Assembly: GCA_963920765.1 (NCBI GenBank)
Contig: OY987244.1
Span: 32,309,678-32,373,677 of the forward strand
DNA: 64,000 nucleotides
Direction of reading: 5' to 3'
From: Ulota crispa
Lineage: Eukaryota > Streptophyta > Bryopsida > Orthotrichales > Orthotrichaceae
Part shown: piece after piece, positions 12,607-62,327 of the stretch
Layout of the letters: the number at the start of each line of letters is the position of its first letter
Position numbering within the stretch: the stretch's first letter is position 1
The notes under the pieces: generated by a model
The model's database searches: none
Told to the model about the DNA's origin: nothing
The model's input: the letters and a program-made list of their open reading frames with translations, nothing else
Program-made: the position numbers and the translations under genes

Positions 12607-13414
12607 TTCTTTGTTATGTCAAAATTTGGTTTAGATGCTAATTAGGCAATTCTAAATACACAATCCACTAAGGCAAACATGTTCTCCCTTAATATTATTG
12701 TATTGTTCAATATTTTGTAGTTGTTTGGAATTGGGTTTTCAAGGAAGAAAGATAAGCCAAGGCAATACATGTGACAAATTTTATAGTTATTTTAAACTAA
12801 AAGAGCTATTGAGACCAATGCAAAGGATCACTTCTTATCCATTGATTTTACCTATAACATTCTTCATACATATATGAACAAGCAGGTGCTCTATTAGAGG
12901 CTTTGTCCTTGTACCAATGGCTTGCATTTCAAATAAGATACTTACTCAAACATTCTCCAAACTTCCTTAGGTAGCTTCTATTGGTGCAAAGCCTCCTCCC
13001 TTGCGGTGTATAGGCAGTAAGTAAGAAACCCTGCCACCATTGCTGAAGGCCAAGCTACATTGGGCTCAAAAACTAACAGACTGTTGCAATAAAAACAGGT
13101 AATCGCAATAAGATATTTTTACAGGAAACAGCTTGGAGTCTTGGACTAGTAATTCACCTTCGGATCTTTAAACTCATATTCTTATTCCAAACAGAAGTCA
13201 ATCATGTTCATCAAACATAAGATAAGGTAGACAGACCCATACCCGAGCGTTTAAGGGTTTGGGTACCGCAAGGTCTCAAAAAATTCAGAAAAAAATCTGT
13301 AGGATTAGCCTTTCAACAAGATATTATGGAATGTTATTTTTGTCAAAAAAAGTATTGTAGAATATTTTATATTAAAGGGAAAAGTTGTAGCTCATAGAAT
13401 CTTAAAAGCAACAA

Positions 13415-14619
13415 ACGCGATATTTGTTAAATCGGGAAAAAGAGTACATTTTGAGACTTTTGAAGATTTTAGGTGATCACCTAAAACTGAGCTTGCGGTG
13501 ATTTTTTGGTACACATGCCCTCACCTGAGAGGAGGAATTTGCAAGGGAAAGAATCTTAGTGGCTCAAATGGAATCTGATACCTTCGAATTTGGTTTAACG
13601 CCTAAAGGACCAAGCTATTTTTTCTGTGAAAAACACATAAAACTGCCACTTTTGGGGAAGCAAGTACAATGGTAAGAAAAAAAAGATTTTTCAAAAATTC
13701 AACCGTAAGATCTTACAGTAAACTACAAGAGGTACACATGGTGAAAAGATCAGCTCAATCTACTCAAAAATGAATGAGATATTTACATCTGAATTGCAAA
13801 AATGAGTTTTTTTTTGCTGCTGCCCAAAAAATTTAGAAGGCTTTGACCACTCTCAGATCAAAAAAATTACTCTACACAAAGTTGAGGTTTATTTTTCCCA
13901 TGTAGGAGACCAAGTTAGGTATGTGTAGGAGAATTTTCAAATCAATTGGAACTATACAACACATGGGAAAAAATAGTAAGTAAAAAGAAGATGAGAATGA
14001 GTCAAAACACTAAATTGTTAAGAATTTAATTATAAAAATGAAAAATGAAAATCTCAATGGTTATAATATTGTGATAAACAATCTACATCCTATGGTTTTG
14101 TTTTTTTTTCAAAATATTGAAAATTGAGTAAAATAAAGGACTTCAAAGTTTGTTTTAGAGTAGAGAATCTAGAACTGCCCGCAAACAAAATCTCCTCACA
14201 ACTTTCATCTCATCTATAAGAATTGAATGATTCAAAGCTCCCCACATCTATGTAAGTCTAAAGAACCTATTTCAGATTTTTATTTGAAAAAAATGAAATT
14301 TTTAAAGGAGTTTTTGGCTGCCCCTCGAATCCCATTTTTCATAAATTCATGCATATATAACTTTTTCATCAAATGTCGGAATGAAGAAAAAATTTGATGC
14401 CCACATAGATCTTTGAATTCCCCACCTTCAATAAAAGTTTTAGAAAATCACAAAAAGTAGATTAGCCATAGGTACATGCCCGAAATCCCATTTGTCCCCC
14501 AAGGGGACTTTGGTCCTTTAGGGGTTAAGGTAACAGTTTGGGTTTAAGGTAACAGTTTGGGTTTAAGGTGGAGTACAAAATGGTACCTCTGTTTTTCCCA
14601 ATTTAATGAATATCGCGTT
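13415..14619. mobile_element. B-type MITE interrupted by an A-type element, 4-bp TSD AACA
   Basis: The outer ends are AACGCGATATTTG and its near complement ATATCGCGTT, flanked by AACA at 13411-13414 and 14620-14623. An A-type element (13599-14524) plus one TTAA copy is inserted; without them the B element is about 275 bp. Next to the insertion point a 19-bp unit starting GGTAACAGTTTGGG is repeated twice (14529-14566), where other copies have it once. Confidence 0.85.
13599..14524 (+). mobile_element. A-type TTAA element (926 bp) inserted in a B-type MITE
   Basis: The left end is CGCCTAAAGGACCAAG and the right end is the complement of CCCCTAAAGGACCAAAG. TTAA lies at 13595-13598 and 14525-14528. 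The undisturbed B copy at 46100 has a single TTAA at the same point (within 'ggtttaaggtaa' near 46281). TTAA duplication plus CCC-initial TIRs is the piggyBac pattern; family assignment is inference, since no transposase is present. Confidence 0.88.
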
Positions 14620-15417
14620 AACATTCTTGACAGTCCCAATCCCAACTTTCCCTGGAAACTAACTTAACAATTAACATGTGACAAAATTTACTTGTGCAAG
14701 TAGTGTTCACTTACTACACTCTGGGTTCAAGAGTGTATGGTGAACACCTCAAATATAGGGTGCAAAATTGAGAGCCGCTCAGGAATGGGTATGTCTACTT
14801 TAGTGCAATTGTGCAACTGAAAAATCATGCAAAAGTTAGTAGAACAAAGTGCTGCAAACATTGTGCGACAGTGTCCAAATAATACATGAAATCTACCTTG
14901 GACAGGTTCACTTGCCAGTCAGGCTTAATGTGGCCATGGCAAGAAAAGTTACTTAGGTTCATGTTATGTAACTTTGGAAAGATGACCGTAGTAGTACGCA
15001 GCCTTCACTGTTGGAAACCCACAAGAGATGCCCACATTGATTAATTGATGAAAGCTTCTTGTCTCTTGTACTTGGATCAGTGCCTCTGTCATCACCGCTG
15101 CTCTTCCTCTTCCAGCCAAATATTGCAGTGTCAAGGGTGATTTTTTTAGAAAGATTGAGGTGATTCACAAGTTGGTGTACCCGTATGTAGTGTCCCACAA
15201 GTACTTACAAAATTATGAAGATGTGAGCAGCACGTCTACAGCTGGACATTTAAGATATTCAACCAAATGAGCAGATATACAGTATTACATTTGGGAAGCA
15301 GGACTTACCCAAAATGTAAATATGTTTATGATTGGGATCCTGTTAGGTTGTAGGTAGGGCCACAATAGAGCTTGGCCATCCATCAGCATTATGGACTGCC
15401 GGGACTGTTGTTATTGT

Positions 15418-19992: not shown

Positions 19993-20228
19993 TTAAAAGT
20001 TCAAGACAGGATTTTTTTGGGCAATTAAATGCCCAATTGCCTCTAATAAAAAAGCGAGCTTCAAGCCTATAAGGAAAAAAAGGGGGAAAACACTCAAAAA
20101 ATGGGAATAGTGAAAATTGTATTGCAGCATAGGCTTTCATAAAATTCTTATCAAATTGAAGATTGATGATTGTCATCATTTAAAAAATATTTGAGGTATT
20201 GTCTAATCCAATTCCATGCAATAATTAA

Positions 20229-21182
20229 CCCCTAAAGGCCCAAGCCTTTTTTTTGGGTGAAAGTCACTAAAAACTGCTACTTTTGGGGGAATGAGTAGAA
20301 AAATATGAATTTTTTATTTATTTGGACATCCAAGCGTAGGATCATGTTCTAGACTATGGGAGGTACTTGTGGGAAAAAAATCAGCTCATTCTAGATGTAA
20401 AGGAGTGAGATATTGACATCTAAAGTGCAATTTTTTTTTCCTTGCCGCCAAGAAAGTTTAGGAGCCTTTAAATGCTCCTATATCAAAAAAATTGCTCTAC
20501 CCAAAGTTGAGGTTTATTTTTTTCCATGTAGAAGACCAACTTGGGTAAGTGTGGGAGAATTTTCAAATTAGTTGGAGGTGTGAATCATACTTTGTAAAAT
20601 CTTGCAATGGTGTAAGGCCACAAAATTTGCATAATTATACACTAGGCAAAATTGGAGGATTTATGTAAAATTCAGAAATATGAAATACTTTGATCTGAAT
20701 GGTGGAAACCAAGGAATTTTAGTCTACTACAACTTGGAAAATAAAAAAGTGAAAAAACATAAACACAAAGAGCTCAAAAAAGTAAAGCACTAAATTTTAC
20801 AAGGGGCAAAAGGAATGGAGGTTTGGGGGTCCCATACGTACCCTCAAACTAGAACTTCTCATAACCTCATCTCATCTATCAAAATTGAATAATTAAAAGC
20901 TTCCCACTTATGTGTAAATCTAAAGAACCAATTTCAAATTATTAATATTTTTTAAATGAATTTTTTAAAGAAGTTTTTGGGTTGCTTGCCCTCCCTAGTT
21001 TTTAGAAATTCATGCATAACTTTTTCAATAAACGTTGGAATGAAGAAAAATTAGATGCCCACATAGATCTTTGAATTCCCCACCTTCATTAAAAGTTTCA
21101 AAAAATTACACAAAATAGTTTAACTATAGGTACATGCCCAAAACCCCATTTGTCCCCCAAGGGGACAATAGTCCTTTAGGGG
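20229..21182 (+). mobile_element. A-type TTAA element, 954 bp
   Basis: Begins CCCCTAAAGGCCCAAGCC and ends TCCTTTAGGGG between TTAA at 20225-20228 and 21183-21186. The body shares long blocks with the copies at 13599, 33975 and 44588, such as 'gctctacccaaagttgaggt' and 'ggtacatgccc'. The right TTAA is shared with the next element. Confidence 0.85.
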
Positions 21183-21186
21183 TTAA

Positions 21187-22140: not shown

Positions 22141-22668
22141 TTAATTATGAGGGCTTCCGCCTTTCTTGTGTTATAGAGATTGCTGCGATGACCTTCCATA
22201 TGGAGAGGCCGGCACGTAATCCAAAATATGTGAGGCTGCAAACCATATTTTCCTTCTAACACTTTTGCATATGTTTGTTTTGACATGCCATTCAGCCATG
22301 CGATTGTGTCTATTTCAAAAAATCTAAATGCTGCAGTGCAAAAGCTCTGTTGCCAGGCCAGTGAAATCAATTTCTTGATAGAAACACAGTCCTTGGTAAT
22401 TATGTTGCCAAGCTTGTATTGGTTCAACAACATTGAAACTGAGGAGCAACTACTAAATGGAGTCGTAGCCAAGCATGGATGCCTCTTGGAACGGAGCTGC
22501 TGAAGTGTAAGTTACCAGCCACAAACAAACGTTTGCAACAGAAGTTGTTATGAATTTGGACTTGTGTATTCCTCTACTGTGTACAAGCTGCACCCTTTTG
22601 GCTTTTGTTGTCCTCCTCGGACCTAAAACCATACAGTGTCTAAATCATGTACAGTAGTGCCTCTTTAA

Positions 22669-22900
22669 CCCTTAAAGGACCGAGGAGCCCTTTGCGGTCA
22701 ATACTGTATTTAGTATTTTCTTGTATTTGGAATGCATTCACACCTTTATTACATTTGAGGTCAACAAAGAAGTTAGAATATAGATCAATGCGGTTCTAGT
22801 GAGCTAGTCAAGATCCCAAATTAAAACTTTTTATTGGTAACAAATGCTAGTTATGTAGTAGCGTATTTATTATGTAATATGTAAAGCGGTCCTTTAAGGG
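22669..22900. mobile_element. A3-type short TTAA element, 232 bp
   Basis: Starts CCCTTAAAGGACCGAGG, ends CGGTCCTTTAAGGG, with TTAA at 22665-22668 and 22901-22904. Same interior as 35427 and 21187. Its right TTAA is followed at once by CCCCTGAAGGGCCC, the start of an 82-bp A-like remnant. Confidence 0.82.
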
Positions 22901-22990
22901 TTAACCCCTGAAGGGCCCTTGGGCTCTGGAGATACAGTACCAAATATGGTCGCAACCACTATTCAAAAGTTTGAATCAACTGGAAATTAA

Positions 22991-23633
22991 CCCCTAAATG
23001 TCCAAGGCACCCAATTTGGGTGTTTGCAAAACTTTGAAGACAAATAAAATCTTATCAAATCACTATTTTTGGTATTTTCTTTTGAACATAAGTTTGTTTT
23101 GAAGACTGTTTTCAACATCAAAAATCTGATTTTGAAAATGAATGTTCATGATTTTTCTATTCAAGATTTTGTACAAGGGTGTGCACTGCAATCTTGAGTT
23201 TTTTAGTGTTGGAAGATCTTGAAAATGAGCCTCAAATACACTAGGGCTTGGAGAAAAGTCCACATTAGAAATCCATTAAAAAAAATACAAGAGTAAATTT
23301 TGAAAGCCGTAAATTGGTTGAGGTTAAACATGTAATGACCTTGAACCTCATATTCTTTGATGACCAACTTTTTAGATTTGACATGTGAAATGAGGATTAG
23401 AAAACTTCAAGTCACTTTTGCAATTTTAACACCCTCTTGTTCAAACATTATAATCTTTCAAACTATAAGGGATATTGTTGTGTTTTCTTTTTCCATGTAA
23501 TCTCTAACATGTCAAGTTATAATTTGTATAGTTACAGTTAAAAAAAACTTGATGAGATTTATGAAAAGGTTGGTTGATTGTTCACTTTCCTGAAAATGCC
23601 AAGAAGTTCAGAAAGACCTTGGGCATTTAGGGG
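22991..23633. mobile_element. A2-type TTAA element, 643 bp
   Basis: Starts CCCCTAAATGTCCAAGG and ends CCTTGGGCATTTAGGGG between TTAA at 22987-22990 and 23634-23637. The body ('attcaagattttgtacaagg', 'cttggagaaaa') matches the copy at 19344. Confidence 0.83.
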
Positions 23634-24164
23634 TTAAGTATTACAACCATACATATTGAAGGGTTGTATGATGGTGGGTGCATAATTTTTTTTGGAAAGC
23701 CCTCATAGCAGCTCAAATACGTCTGTACATACGGCCACAAAGGGCGTTTGGGCTGTTCAGGGCAGCGTTGTCTTCTCGGACAAATTTTGGAGTTTGGTCG
23801 TTGTGTTGTTTGTTTGACGTCTAATGTCGCGTATGACAATTGTCAAGTATGAGTGACAATCTTGTCTAATACGGCCCTATTTAACAGCTGAGATAATTTT
23901 AAAATCTATTTTAAATATGACCCAAAATGTTGAATCTAATAAGTGTATATTGATTTGAGATACCTCAATGAAATGAAACGTTAATATGTCAAAATTGGAA
24001 AGAAAAAGTGCTTTATTTAATAGTCAACTTTGAAGTTGATTCTACTAGACAGACGAAGGGGCTCATGTCTGTCTATGACATCAAGTTTGTCGAGTTGTCG
24101 CCGTGTTGGGGAAGACAGCCACGGTTCAGGGGTTAAGATGAACCTTTATAAGAAAAAACGCTTA

Positions 24165-38495: not shown

Positions 38496-38536
38496 TTATA
38501 ACATTAAATTTTTTTTTTCTCAAATACATATATTAT

Positions 38537-38690
38537 TTTTTGGGATTTTTTTGAGATTTTTTTGAGATTTTTTTGGGATTTTTTTGGGATTTTTTTGGGA
38601 TTTTTTTGGGATTTTTTTGGGATTTTTTTGGACTTTTTTGGACTTTTTTGGACTTTTTTGGATTTTTTGGATTTTTGGATTTTTTAAGTT
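38537..38690. repeat. GGGATTTTTTT microsatellite
   Basis: About a dozen units of (G/T)GGATTTTTTT grading into GGACTTTTTT. The Phe/Gly-rich frame across it is an artefact. Confidence 0.88.
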
Positions 38691-39868: not shown

Positions 39869-39872
39869 TTAA

Positions 39873-40787
39873 CCCCTAAAAGACCAAGCAGTATTTTCAC
39901 CAAAAACTCTCCAAAACTGCCATTTTTAGAGCATCCACCAAAATTTGAAGATAAAAATGTTTTTTTTGCATATGCCAATGTAGGATCTTATAGTAGGATA
40001 GTTTGGGAAGATTTGGAAAAAAATTCAAAATTTTCTACCGCGTGGATTGGAAGATATTATGGTTTGAATATCCACGCTTGTCTTGTGAAAAATTGAGCAG
40101 CTACCATTCAGAAGGTGAAATTCCTAAGGAAAAAAAGCCATGTGGATGGTGCTTTTTTTGATTCCTTATTCTAGCTAAGTAGGGTACTTGTCAAAAAAGT
40201 TTCATAGCATTTGGAATTATACAACATATGGAAAAAAAGTAGTAAGTGAATAGAAGTAGAGAATGATTCAAAACTCCAAATTTTTGAGAATTTAATTATG
40301 GAAATGAAAAATGCCAATCCAACGGTTTTAATGTTGTAATTAACAATTTACATCCTTTGGTTTTGTTTTTTTTTCCAAGATATTGAAAATTGAGTAAAAT
40401 AAAGGACTCTTCAACTTTATTTTAGAGTAGAGAACTCATAACTATCCGCAAACAAAAACTCCCCTTAACTTTCATTTCATTGATAAAAACATAGTGATTC
40501 AAAGCTTTCCACATTCACATAAATCTCCTAAACCAATTTCAAAATTTTGTTTTCAAAAAAAGCAAAATTTGAAATGTGCTTGGGCTACCTGCCGAGTGAA
40601 AAAATCAACATATTATGCCATATCTTCTTACTCTTACTTTCAAATGTCATGAAATTTAGTGCATATGAAAGATAAACCTTGTTCCCACATTTTATTAAAA
40701 TTTCAGCCTCAAACATGAAGATCTCCAATCATAGGTACCTACCCAAAATTGCTATGTTGCTAAAAAAGGGGCTTGATCTTTTAGGGA
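39873..40787 (+). mobile_element. A-type TTAA element, second of three chained copies
   Basis: A 915-bp diverged copy, CCCCTAAAAGACCAAGC to GATCTTTTAGGGA, between TTAA at 39869-39872 and 40788-40791. Forward orientation. It shares blocks with the A copy in 13599-14524 ('aagatattgaaaattgagta'). Confidence 0.8.
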
Positions 40788-40791
40788 TTAA

Positions 40792-41709
40792 CCCCTAAAG
40801 GACCATTGTCCCTACAGGGGACAAATGGGATTTTGGGCAGGTACCTACAGCCTCAATTTTTGTCCTAATTTTTTGAAACTTTTTTTGAAGATAGAAAAAC
40901 GCATTAGCTTTTGGGGAATCTAAGTCTTATTCCAATTGATGCTAGGGGGCAAAAGTTATGCCCAAATAAGCACAAATTTGGGGACTAGGGGCGGCAAAAA
41001 AAATTCTTATAAAAACTTGAAAAAAAATTTTAATTTTTTTCTTATAGATTATATCTTTGTCTACATCTGAAGCTTTGATTCATTCCATTTGGACTAGTTA
41101 TGAGAAAGTTATGGACAATCTTGTTTTTTGGGCAACTCAAGCATCTTCTTGAAATTATAACTTATAAACTTCATTTTTGAATGCAAGTTTAACATTTTTC
41201 CAAAAATTTTTGTTAGAGAGGGTGAATTTTGCTTTCTAGAACAATCTCACTATTGGGATTATTGCGTTTCAATTCCATTGCAGGGTTATTAGCAATTTAA
41301 GTTTTTGTTCAATCTCATACCTTCTTCTACCTAATGTTTTTTTAAAGAATGAAAATTAAGTATTTAAAAAAAATAAATTCCCAAGATTCCCAACTCAACT
41401 TCCCAACATGCAAAAATAGAATTCCGAACTTTGTGGTGCAAAAATTTTAAGTTAAAAATGTTCAAAGTTAAAAAGTATAGTCAAACAAGGTGCAAAAAAA
41501 GTTTTTTTTTACACTCTAAATGCAAATATCTTCCAATATGTGCGGTCAAAGTCTTTGAGTTTTGTATGACACATTTTTATAGTAGTCTAGCACAAGATCC
41601 TACGGTCAGATATGCAAAATGCTTGATTTTCAAACTTTTTTACGCTTTGCCATAGAGGTGGCAGTTTTGAGTGTCTTTTGACAAAATAAAGACCATGGTC
41701 CCTTAGGGG
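40792..41709 (-). mobile_element. A-type TTAA element, third of three chained copies
   Basis: A 918-bp diverged copy starting CCCCTAAAGGACCATTGTCC and ending ATGGTCCCTTAGGGG, between TTAA at 40788-40791 and 41710-41713. Reverse orientation. Confidence 0.8.
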
Positions 41710-41713
41710 TTAA

Positions 41714-44385: not shown

Positions 44386-45351
44386 GTTACATTAAATATT
44401 GCATTTAGGTTGCCTTGACAATTAGGTTGCCTTACCCAAGTACGTTACTACATGACTCATCACTTGGCCACTTGGAGAGGCATGCAACTCTTTAGATATT
44501 TGGATTTTACATAGTTTACGACTTGGTTGCCACCTAGTTTGTTTTTCCACAACTTCATTGTTGTTGCTACGGCCTTTAACTATTTAACCCCTAAAGGACC
44601 AAGCCTTTTCTTGTGTGAAAATCATTGAAAATTGTCACTTTTAGGGGAATGATAAGAAATGTTGGAAAAAGGCTTTTTTTGAAAATCCAACCATAGGATA
44701 TTGGCATCTTGCCCTTAGACTATGCAAGGTACTTTTTGGGAAAAAAATTAGGTCTTTTCAAATTGTGAGGAGTGAAATATCAACATTTGAAGTGAAGAAA
44801 AAAAGTTTTTTCCCAGTTGCCCAAAATTTGAGAAGCCTTTGTGTCTTTGACCACTCTTATAGCAAAAAAATTGCTTTACACAAAGTTGAGGTTTATTTCA
44901 TCCATGTATAAGACCAAGTTAGTTAGTTAGGAATGTGTGGGAGAATTTTCAAATGAATTAGAGGTATAAGACATAATTCAAAAAATCTTTGAATACTAGA
45001 ATTTGGAAGGTTCTGAAATTTGCAAATACACCAGGCAAAATTGGAGGATTTATGTAAAATTTAGAAATTTGAATTAGACTAATCTAAACAGTGAAAAGTA
45101 AGAATTCTCAACCTATGACAACTTGGAAAATAATAATTCAAAAAACAAGTACACAAGCAATTAAAAAAACAAACGTACCAAATTTTAGAAAGGGCAAAAG
45201 GAATGGAGGGTTGGGAGTCCCCTGACAAGATGGGCACCTTCTATTCCACTCCCTTTTGCACAAGTGTCCACACCTTGTGCTCAAAAGGTCTGACTCTCTT
45301 TGGAGTCAACAATCAACACTCACTTACAAAGGAGACTGAGGCCATGCATGA

Positions 45352-45595
45352 ATTGCTCCATTAGCAAAATTTTGAGCCCTCCAGAAGGCCCCTAACTCCA
45401 CTTGAGAGATGTGCATATAGAGAAAAAGGCTGCCATTTCTGACATTTGCAGTGTATCATATGATGTGCCACGGCAGTTTTAGTATTTAATTTAATTTATT
45501 ATTATTATTATTTTATTGTTTTTGTTCACCTTCATTATGTAACGTAGTAGAGTATTTTAGGGGCCCTCTAGAGGGTTCAAAATTTTGCTAATGCT
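45352..45595. mobile_element. Inverted-repeat element nested in an A-type element
   Basis: The arms ATTAGCAAAATTTTGAGCCC and complement of ATTAGCAAAATTTTGAACCC are followed inward by CCAGAAGGCCCCTAA and its partner. GCTCC precedes the left arm and follows the right arm, a likely 5-bp target duplication. The A-type body is interrupted at this point. Confidence 0.7.
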
Positions 45596-45624
45596 CCTCC
45601 CTAGTTTTGATGAATTCTTGCATA

Positions 45625-45982
45625 AGGTAGAAATACCATAAACGGTTAAAATAAGGCAATTTAGCCCAAAGATATGGGGAATTTCTTGAGAAATTAAGTT
45701 CAATACGTGGAGAAACAAGGATAAGGACGAGTGAAAAAAAAAAAAACTCAAAAATGAATATTTTATGCAAAATAAATGTGGATTTAGGGTTTGGACCGTT
45801 TACAATTTCATAGGTGTACCTTAAACGGCTACCTCTAGAACCTTGATCCAAAATAAATTTGAACCAATCAAATGCGAGGAAAGAGCATCTTTCTGAAATC
45901 TCTTTCAAAGCTAGCTCTTGTCGGTTTAAAGACACTCTACTCTACCATTATCAGGCAGTAATCGTTTAAGGTATTTCTACCT
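45625..45982. mobile_element. TA-flanked element with AGGTAGAAATACC ends
   Basis: Ends AGGTAGAAATACC and complement, then AAACGGTT / AAACGATT, with TA at 45623-45624 and 45983-45984. The A-type body ('gcataa' then 'ttcaataaacgttggaatg') is split here. TA duplication suggests the mariner/Tc1 group; not provable without a transposase. Confidence 0.72.
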
Positions 45983-46099
45983 TATCTTCTTCAATGTTGG
46001 AATGAAGAAAATATTAGATGCCCGTGTAAATTTTTGAATTCCCCATCTTCCATAAAAGCTTTAGAAAATCACACAAAGTAGTTTAGCTAGTAGGTACAT

Positions 46100-46357
46100 A
46101 ATACCATATTTGTTAAATTGGGAAAAAGAGTATATTTTGGGACTTTCAAAGGTTTTAGGTGGTCACCTAAAATTGAGCTTGTAGCGTTTTTTTGGGTACA
46201 TGTGCCCGCACTTGAGAGGAGGATTTTTTGAGGGAAAAAATCTTAGTGGTTCAGATTGACTCTGATACCTTCAAATCTGGTTTAAGGTAATTTTTTGGGT
46301 TTAAGGTGGAACACAAAATGGTACCTCTATTTTTCCCAATTTAATGAATATGATGTT
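46100..46357. mobile_element. B-type MITE nested in an A-type element, 4-bp TSD ACAT
   Basis: A 258-bp element with ends AATACCATATTTG and AATATGATGTT. ACAT occurs at 46096-46099 and 46358-46361. It splits the 'ggtacatgccc' segment that is continuous in the A-type copy near 14471, so the pre-insertion site is visible. Confidence 0.87.
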
Positions 46358-46520
46358 ACATGCCCAAAATCCCATTTGTCTCCCAAGGGAACAATGGTCC
46401 TTTAGGGATTAAGAATTGTTTATTGCAGGATGAAAATTACTGTAGCAGCCGTAAGTATTTTAATAGTGTAGAATGTTGAGAAGTTAGTGTGGGGCAACCT
46501 AAACGCAATATTCAGTGTAG

Positions 46521-61631: not shown

Positions 61632-61805
61632 GTGTCCAATTGAGCTCATGATTTGATGTAGTCAACTCATAATTGACTTCAAAAAATGATAAAAAATGAA
61701 AAGAAAAACTTACTTTGTACATGCTAGTGACACTCATTGTTGCCAATAAGAAATCAAAATGTGGATTTAAATCCATATCACGTAGTAAACATGAAAAATG
61801 ATAAT
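61632..61805 (+). repeat. Dispersed repeat, partner of 56240-56420
   Basis: Direct-orientation second copy of the same segment, ending just before the B-type MITE at 61809. Confidence 0.6.
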
Positions 61806-61808
61806 TTG

Positions 61809-62066
61809 AACGCCATATTTGTTAAATTGGAAAAAATGGAGGTACCATTTTGTACTCCACCATAAACCCAAAAAGTTACTTTAAACCAGATTTGAAGGTA
61901 TCAGATTCAATCTGAGCCACTAAGATTTTTTCCCTCGCAAATTCCTCCTTTCAGGTGAGTGCACGTGCACCAAAAAAAATGCTGCAAGCTCGGTATTAGG
62001 TGATCACCTAAAACCTTCAGAAGTCCCAAAATGTACTGTTTTTCCCAATTTAACAAATATGGTGTT
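61809..62066. mobile_element. B-type MITE, 4-bp TSD TTTG
   Basis: A 258-bp element whose ends read AACGCCATATTTGTTAAA and its near complement. TTTG flanks both sides (61805-61808, 62067-62070). Same interior as the 37405 copy, same orientation. Confidence 0.85.
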
Positions 62067-62327
62067 TTTGGTTCTTCCTTTTTCAGGTCAAAAACCCTAA
62101 ATATGCCCTTTAAAAACAAGAGATAACAAACACATCCGTTTGAGTAATGTATTTTGTGTATCTGCTTGTGTTGTTCAAGAGCCAAATCTTGCCCAACCAT
62201 ATTTCCAAGTACTCTTTCCAATTGTTTCTAGTATATTTTTTAGTGTGGAAGAATGGATGTGTCTTTGTAAGTTCTGATTTTATCAATGAACAACATGCCT
62301 ACTTCTTTTTAAATGAACAAATAGTTA

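Follow-up and report, generated by a model that had tools for sequence, protein, structure and literature searches.

A probable piggyBac MITE at a duplicated TTAA in a plant genome, and a transposase-bearing relative with the same ends

Which kind of transposase brought a short element into the middle of another repeat and left a TTAA on either side of it? This question is raised by a locus in the window (the whole 64,000-nucleotide stretch of DNA analysed here), at which an A-type element interrupts a B-type element (Table 1). We consider it very likely that the A-type element represents a MITE, a non-autonomous transposon of the piggyBac superfamily, which was moved into a TTAA of the B-type element by a piggyBac-type transposase. 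Longer elements that have the same pair of dissimilar ends would encode a piggyBac-type DDD transposase, this enzyme would recognise the A-type ends and excise the element, the excised element would be joined into a TTAA inside the B-type element, and gap repair would duplicate the TTAA. By analogy with the known superfamily, the A-type element would follow a cut-and-paste chemistry.

The nested element and its empty sites

The A-type element measures 934 bp counting both TTAA copies, has a GC content of 31%, and contains no open reading frame of at least 120 amino acids. Between the TTAA copies, its letters start with CGCCTAAAGGACCAAG and finish with ..TTGGTCCTTTAGGGG. The inverted match spans 19 bp with the TTAA (94.7%), and the TIR 15 bp without it, the left end carrying one change, CGCC instead of CCCC. 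This length falls within the 12-19 bp recorded for piggyBac TIRs, whose tip motif is CC[C/T]T (PMC2872659, in excerpt). The A-type tips read CCCCT, one C beyond this motif, and those of sister families and of several transposase-bearing ends read CCCTT; other piggyBac tips on record are CCCTC, CCCAT and CACTA (PMC10813416, in excerpt). Allowing up to two mismatches, the pattern TTAACCCCTAAAGG occurs 26 times in the window, compared with 0.91 expected from shuffles.

Table 1. Elements and sites in the window, with the evidence for each
Feature	Position	Strand	Evidence or remark
A-type element, very probably a piggyBac MITE	13595..14528	+	ends match piggyBac element C7:11814404-11822436
Left TTAA target-site copy	13595..13598	.	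sequence and related B copies
Right TTAA target-site copy	14525..14528	.	sequence and related B copies
Left TIR CGCCTAAAGGACCAA (X end)	13599..13613	+	~58-base match to right end of transposase-bearing element
Right TIR CCCCTAAAGGACCAA (Y end)	14510..14524	-	~52-base match to left end of transposase-bearing element
B-type host, left part	13414..13594	+	AACA at 13410-13413; limits by eye
B-type host, right part	14529..14619	+	AACA at 14620-14623; limits by eye
Uninterrupted B copy (empty site)	46100..46357	+	TTAA at 46282-46285; limits by eye
Second A-type element, enlarged by insertions	44584..46412	+	TTAA on both sides; host relative 2051-2244 has one TTAA
A-type element, 962 bp	20225..21186	+	TIR pair, end comparison
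A-related element, 923 bp	39869..40791	+	only X end matches; right TTAA common with next element
A-type element, 926 bp, reverse orientation	40788..41713	-	TIR pair, end comparison
MITE with CCCCTAAATG ends	22987..23637	+	first 37 bp 89% like left end of C5:10867266-10873011 (L012)
Short TTAA MITE, 240 bp	22665..22904	+	perfect CCCTTAAAGGACCG ends

The host reads GGTTTAA before the A-type element and TTAAGGTAAC after it, and the uninterrupted B copy reads GGTTTAAGGTAA across the same junction, with a single TTAA. A script joined the flanks of each queried element and sought relatives spanning the junction. Nine related B copies span the junction of the 13595 element. Six of them run gap-free through a single TTAA (46189, 61977-61803, 59963, 37572-37439, L027:1339-1186 and L001:2481-2313), two have the TTAA with small gaps adjoining (15513 and 49582-49410), and one has a deletion at the junction (L008). 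The B host is longer than its relatives there because of a 19-bp tandem repeat to the right of the insertion.

The queries comprised 45 pairs of TIRs, a number of which are overlapping or fortuitous pairings, with L003 and L005 excluded for their overlap with L002 and L004. Adequate flanks were present for 44, of which 11 aligned across the junction, cleanly for the 13595 element. The empty site of the 44584 element is represented by one relative with TTAA and a 6-base gap directly before it, its other relatives being diverged. Two junctions had gap-free relatives with other bases, namely TTGA at L029:5476, whose second relative is too diverged, and CCAA at L004:1501. The other seven alignments were deletions, self-matches or too diverged, and are uninformative on TTAA.

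The original prediction, made from the letters of the window, had read an element from 13595 to 14528, bounded by TTAA on both sides, and had held that its insertion into the B type doubled the TTAA. Coordinates and letters proved correct on re-reading, the B relatives carry one TTAA, and the genome counts given below fix the duplicated length at 4 bp.

B-type ends resemble AACGCGATATT / AACACCATATT (13414-14619, 46100-46357 and 61800-62080). By eye, B-type copies are flanked by differing 4-bp repeats (AACA, ACAT, TTTG), so that the B type looks like a separate family with a free 4-bp target. The nesting is mutual, as the uninterrupted B copy itself sits in the enlarged A-type element, with ACAT on either side (by eye). 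This suggests that the periods in which the two families were active overlapped.

Five TTAA sites double as the right end of one element and the left end of its neighbour (21183, 22901 and 40788, as well as L035:6286 and 6643), compared with 1.31 expected if the elements were independent (P 0.011). New copies may favour TTAA beside old copies. An array of the 11-base unit TTTTTTGGGAT was also observed, at 38514-38666.

Transposase-bearing elements and the A-type ends

At least 120 matches to PF13843, the piggyBac transposase domain, are present in the genome (best E 1.3e-73). This is a lower bound, for which 116 of 527 candidates were scored, and some of the matches are fragments of the same gene. 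The 14 genomes used for comparison gave none, though as a control they are weak, the only one named being a cyanobacterium. Eleven transposase loci were inspected (L009-L018 and L040), and both element ends were found for five of them: L009 (C3:13130262-13135288, 5,027 bp), its 90% relative L018, whose left TTAA reads TTCA, L014 (C2:15046195-15051296, 5,102 bp), L012 (5,746 bp, with identical 15-bp TIRs CCCCTAAATGCCTAA) and L011 (C7:11814404-11822436, 8,033 bp). Unpaired candidate right ends were found for L010, L013, L016, L017 and L040, and no candidate end for L015. In the three bounded families other than L011 (5.0-5.7 kb), the TIRs begin with CCCCT or CCCTT beside TTAA, and one of these families, L012, is resembled by a MITE of the window (Table 1).

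The 4.1 kb taken at each of the first ten transposase loci contained no A-type ends, and longer flanks were required. A tblastn search with transposase pieces gave no match in the other DNA stretches examined. A pattern combining A-type ends with the subterminal GGGACGAA of the L009 family occurs at 13 places, none of which, by eye, has a listed PF13843 match nearer than 20 kb. By eye, motifs like GGGACGAA recur in transposase-bearing elements as well as in MITEs, some 16-30 bases inward from several TTAA ends (L039:3976, L041:1476 and L042:197; ends of L007, L029, L033 and L041). This motif is perhaps a transposase binding site.

The L011 element has TTAA on either side and holds a nested 926-bp A-like MITE. 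It is spanned by four contiguous stretches (L052, L050, L011 and L044), and its PF13843 gene scores 241.6 bits. In BLAST comparisons, its right end matched the X end of seven of eight A-type copies over 57-64 bases (75-85%), and its left end matched the Y end of six of the eight over 52-55 bases (77-85%). Its interior showed no overall match to A-type interiors, only short patches, which lie some 180-255 bases in from X in L029 and L007 (72-73%) and some 125-176 bases in from Y in L035 (75%). Matching ends with only short inner patches are what is usually seen between a MITE and its parent element. One A-type copy also matches the nested MITE.

When ends were scored against ends, eight of nine hand-picked A-type copies reached 24-35 with their own partner end and at most 12 with the wrong end. 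The ninth, the A-related element at 39869, pairs with the L011 element at the X end only. Five other TTAA MITE families scored at most 18 in 20 comparisons. Left out of the nine were L002, L004 and L006, which have the same TIR and a similar length; their subterminal letters differ, indicating that the A-type TIR is common to more than one end family. X and Y cannot be exchanged for one another, in keeping with the dissimilar left and right termini described for piggyBac and piggyBat (PMC11707139, in excerpt).

Could the A-type ends at this locus come from independent MITEs that landed next to a transposase gene of other origin? MITEs are dense here, and the L011 locus carries several short ones immediately beyond its left end, in addition to the nested A-like MITE. 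We nevertheless regard this as improbable. Inside the right end the homology stops after those 57-64 bases, short patches aside, and a scan tolerating up to two mismatches detected no second end some 930 bases further in. Furthermore, the left end, 8 kb away, is of the complementary type, Y, and correctly oriented, and other transposase loci have the same arrangement with their own ends.

With two in-frame stops (TGA) in its transposase gene, the L011 copy is a degenerate relative of the A-type elements, not a proven source. The A-type interiors have a median identity of 57% (one alignment of 11 copies, some in uncertain orientation), and this divergence makes more than one parent likely. We infer that an L011-type transposase, or a close relative, moved the 13595 copy.

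At the protein level, a piece of L012 (P0002) matched piggyBat (9c0f) at 1.7e-16 and Trichoplusia ni piggyBac (6x67) at 3e-13; a piece of L011 (P0004) matched them at 1.2e-11 and 1.8e-17, respectively. The alignment of P0004 with 6x67 covers each of the three Asp motifs, TIDE, LTLDN and GVDVADQ, whose Asp residues are catalytic in piggyBac. A motif scan recovered all three Asp in four of ten loci (L011, L012, L013 and L014). The motif missing from L009 is present in P0003, and in the other five loci at least one Asp motif was not found by the scan, L017 having N at the third. Cys-rich tails, candidates for the C-terminal Cys-rich domain of piggyBac, were seen by eye in P0001 and P0004. Many transposase copies are decayed, and the ten domains, with stops read as X, have a median identity of 37%, which suggests that several old lineages coexist. 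Stop-free PF13843 matches lie at C4:3591922-3593028, C2:34594948-34595949, C6:21758576-21759502, C2:36765124-36766008, C8:19570986-19572215 and C1:1180709-1181995 (L040). From their open frames, these are possible active or domesticated piggyBac genes.

Target site and superfamily

The A-type element might belong to Kolobok or Sola3, its likeness to piggyBac ends being a convergence, but we hold this to be very unlikely. Sola3 also targets TTAA. So does Kolobok (PMC6004289, in excerpt), and the caution of the original prediction in naming both superfamilies was apt in principle. Kolobok is disfavoured by its ends, which start with AG/RR according to the same source, whereas the A-type ends start with CCCC/CCCT. 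Either assignment is also opposed by the PF13843-bearing element, which has both A-type ends. The Kolobok T2-MITE of Xenopus resembles the A type in being a MITE family with a TTAA target, and differs in its AG/AGGRR ends and its THAP + H2CH transposase (PMC6004289, in excerpt).

The length of the target had to be settled by genome counts, because a lone empty site with a palindromic TTAA fits a duplication of TTAA as well as one of TA beside A..T ends. The inner end CCCCTAAAGGACCA was counted genome-wide (275 Mb) without requiring a TTAA. Exact copies numbered 4,405 forward and 4,471 reverse, 8,876 together, and the reversed control gave 0. TTAA precedes 7,555 of these ends (85.1%; 3,781 forward and 3,774 reverse), 305 (3.4%; 145 and 160) keep TAA but lack the initial T, and the remaining 1,016 fail at another position or at several. 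Failures of the first T thus make up 23% of the 1,321, compared with 25% under equal decay of the four positions (binomial P 0.11). The first T is required as strictly as the other three bases, which indicates that the target is TTAA, not TA with a flanking preference. A duplication of TA (Tc1/mariner, Stowaway-like) or of TTA/TAA (PIF/Harbinger, Tourist-like), with the extra bases supplied by the element ends, was rejected on these counts and is hardly credible, since the outer bases are not free, the loss of the first T alone is no more frequent than its share, and the A-type ends match a piggyBac element.

The TTAA duplication of piggyBac is therefore found both in the empty sites and in the genome counts. 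The original prediction had taken TTAA together with CCC-initial TIRs as the piggyBac signature, and the counts and the shared ends of the PF13843 element support it. It had also proposed a genome-wide search for such ends bounded by TTAA, and for a full-length copy encoding a DDE transposase. The former returned the 85% reported above, and the latter a TTAA-flanked element, L011, in which a PF13843 gene lies between both A-type ends, in a degenerate copy.

Abundance, host and known relatives

The exact pattern TTAACCCCTAAAGG occurs 15,411 times in the 274.8-Mb genome, compared with once for the reversed pattern. A repeat library of 13 elements (ten from the window and three from the sample) covers 5.6% of a 200-kb sample made of twenty 10-kb stretches from contigs C1-C3, and the A type alone 3.9%, rough figures from three contigs. 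In this land plant, which is probably a moss, piggyBac-type MITEs appear to have amplified into the many thousands. Stowaway and Tourist are likewise high-copy plant MITEs, and differ from the A type in their targets (TA and TTA/TAA), TIRs and transposases.

The window contains a NAC-domain (NAM) stretch, a domain of land plants or close algae. The plastid genes psaA and psaB lie on one 112.5-kb contig, and 500 PsaA residues had as best chains 6l35/7ksq/7xqp and 8htu (1,146.3 bits; next 1,116.4), which we take to be those of Physcomitrium patens. The NAC stretch marks the host as a land plant, and the PsaA match makes a moss probable. Outside the plastid contig (C157) lie 46 of the 48 psaA/psaB matches, all below full gene length; their location in nuclear contigs points to many plastid DNA insertions.

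The piggyBac superfamily is best known from animals. The elements described here have in common with Trichoplusia ni piggyBac and Myotis piggyBat the TTAA duplication, short CCC-initial TIRs, a PF13843-type DDD transposase and, by eye, what look like Cys-rich tails. They differ in their host, a land plant and probably a moss, and their transposases resemble the animal enzymes of solved structure only distantly (E 1e-11 to 1e-17). The bounded elements are also longer, 5.0-8.0 kb (the longest with a nested MITE) compared with a typical ~2.5 kb (PMC10813416, in excerpt). The piggyBac MITEs of corals, CMITEs, likewise have TTAA and CC[C/T]T-type ends, and one CMITE family has, as here, the ends and mostly not the interior of a piggyBac-like transposon (PMC2872659, in excerpt). 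CMITEs differ in their animal host, and in having an identical TIR with weak internal similarity (same excerpt), whereas about 52-64 bases per end are shared here.

That piggyBac-like elements occur in plants is stated in passing in excerpts of PMC8086355 and PMC10813416, and 1,230 piggyBac copies (0.00%) appear in a table of fern repeats (PMC6890710, in excerpt). Among the titles and abstract openings listed from an open-licence library, which leaves most subscription papers and all preprints outside, none dealt with piggyBac MITEs in mosses, and we do not claim a first report. The kind of element is known, namely piggyBac MITEs. What is unusual is their abundance, and that in a land plant the series leading from MITE to a relative with a transposase gene is complete.

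A broader reading, to which we give an even chance, is that piggyBac is a leading DNA-transposon superfamily of this genome, more than a trace, with many transposase lineages, MITE families of their own and tens of thousands of copies. Some of the open frames could then be active or domesticated, and the superfamily possibly entered horizontally from another kingdom. Transposase genes, bounded elements and thousands of MITEs together make the origin, spread and host control of piggyBac testable in plants. A native plant piggyBac tool may follow, and knowledge of these families would aid the repeat annotation of such genomes.
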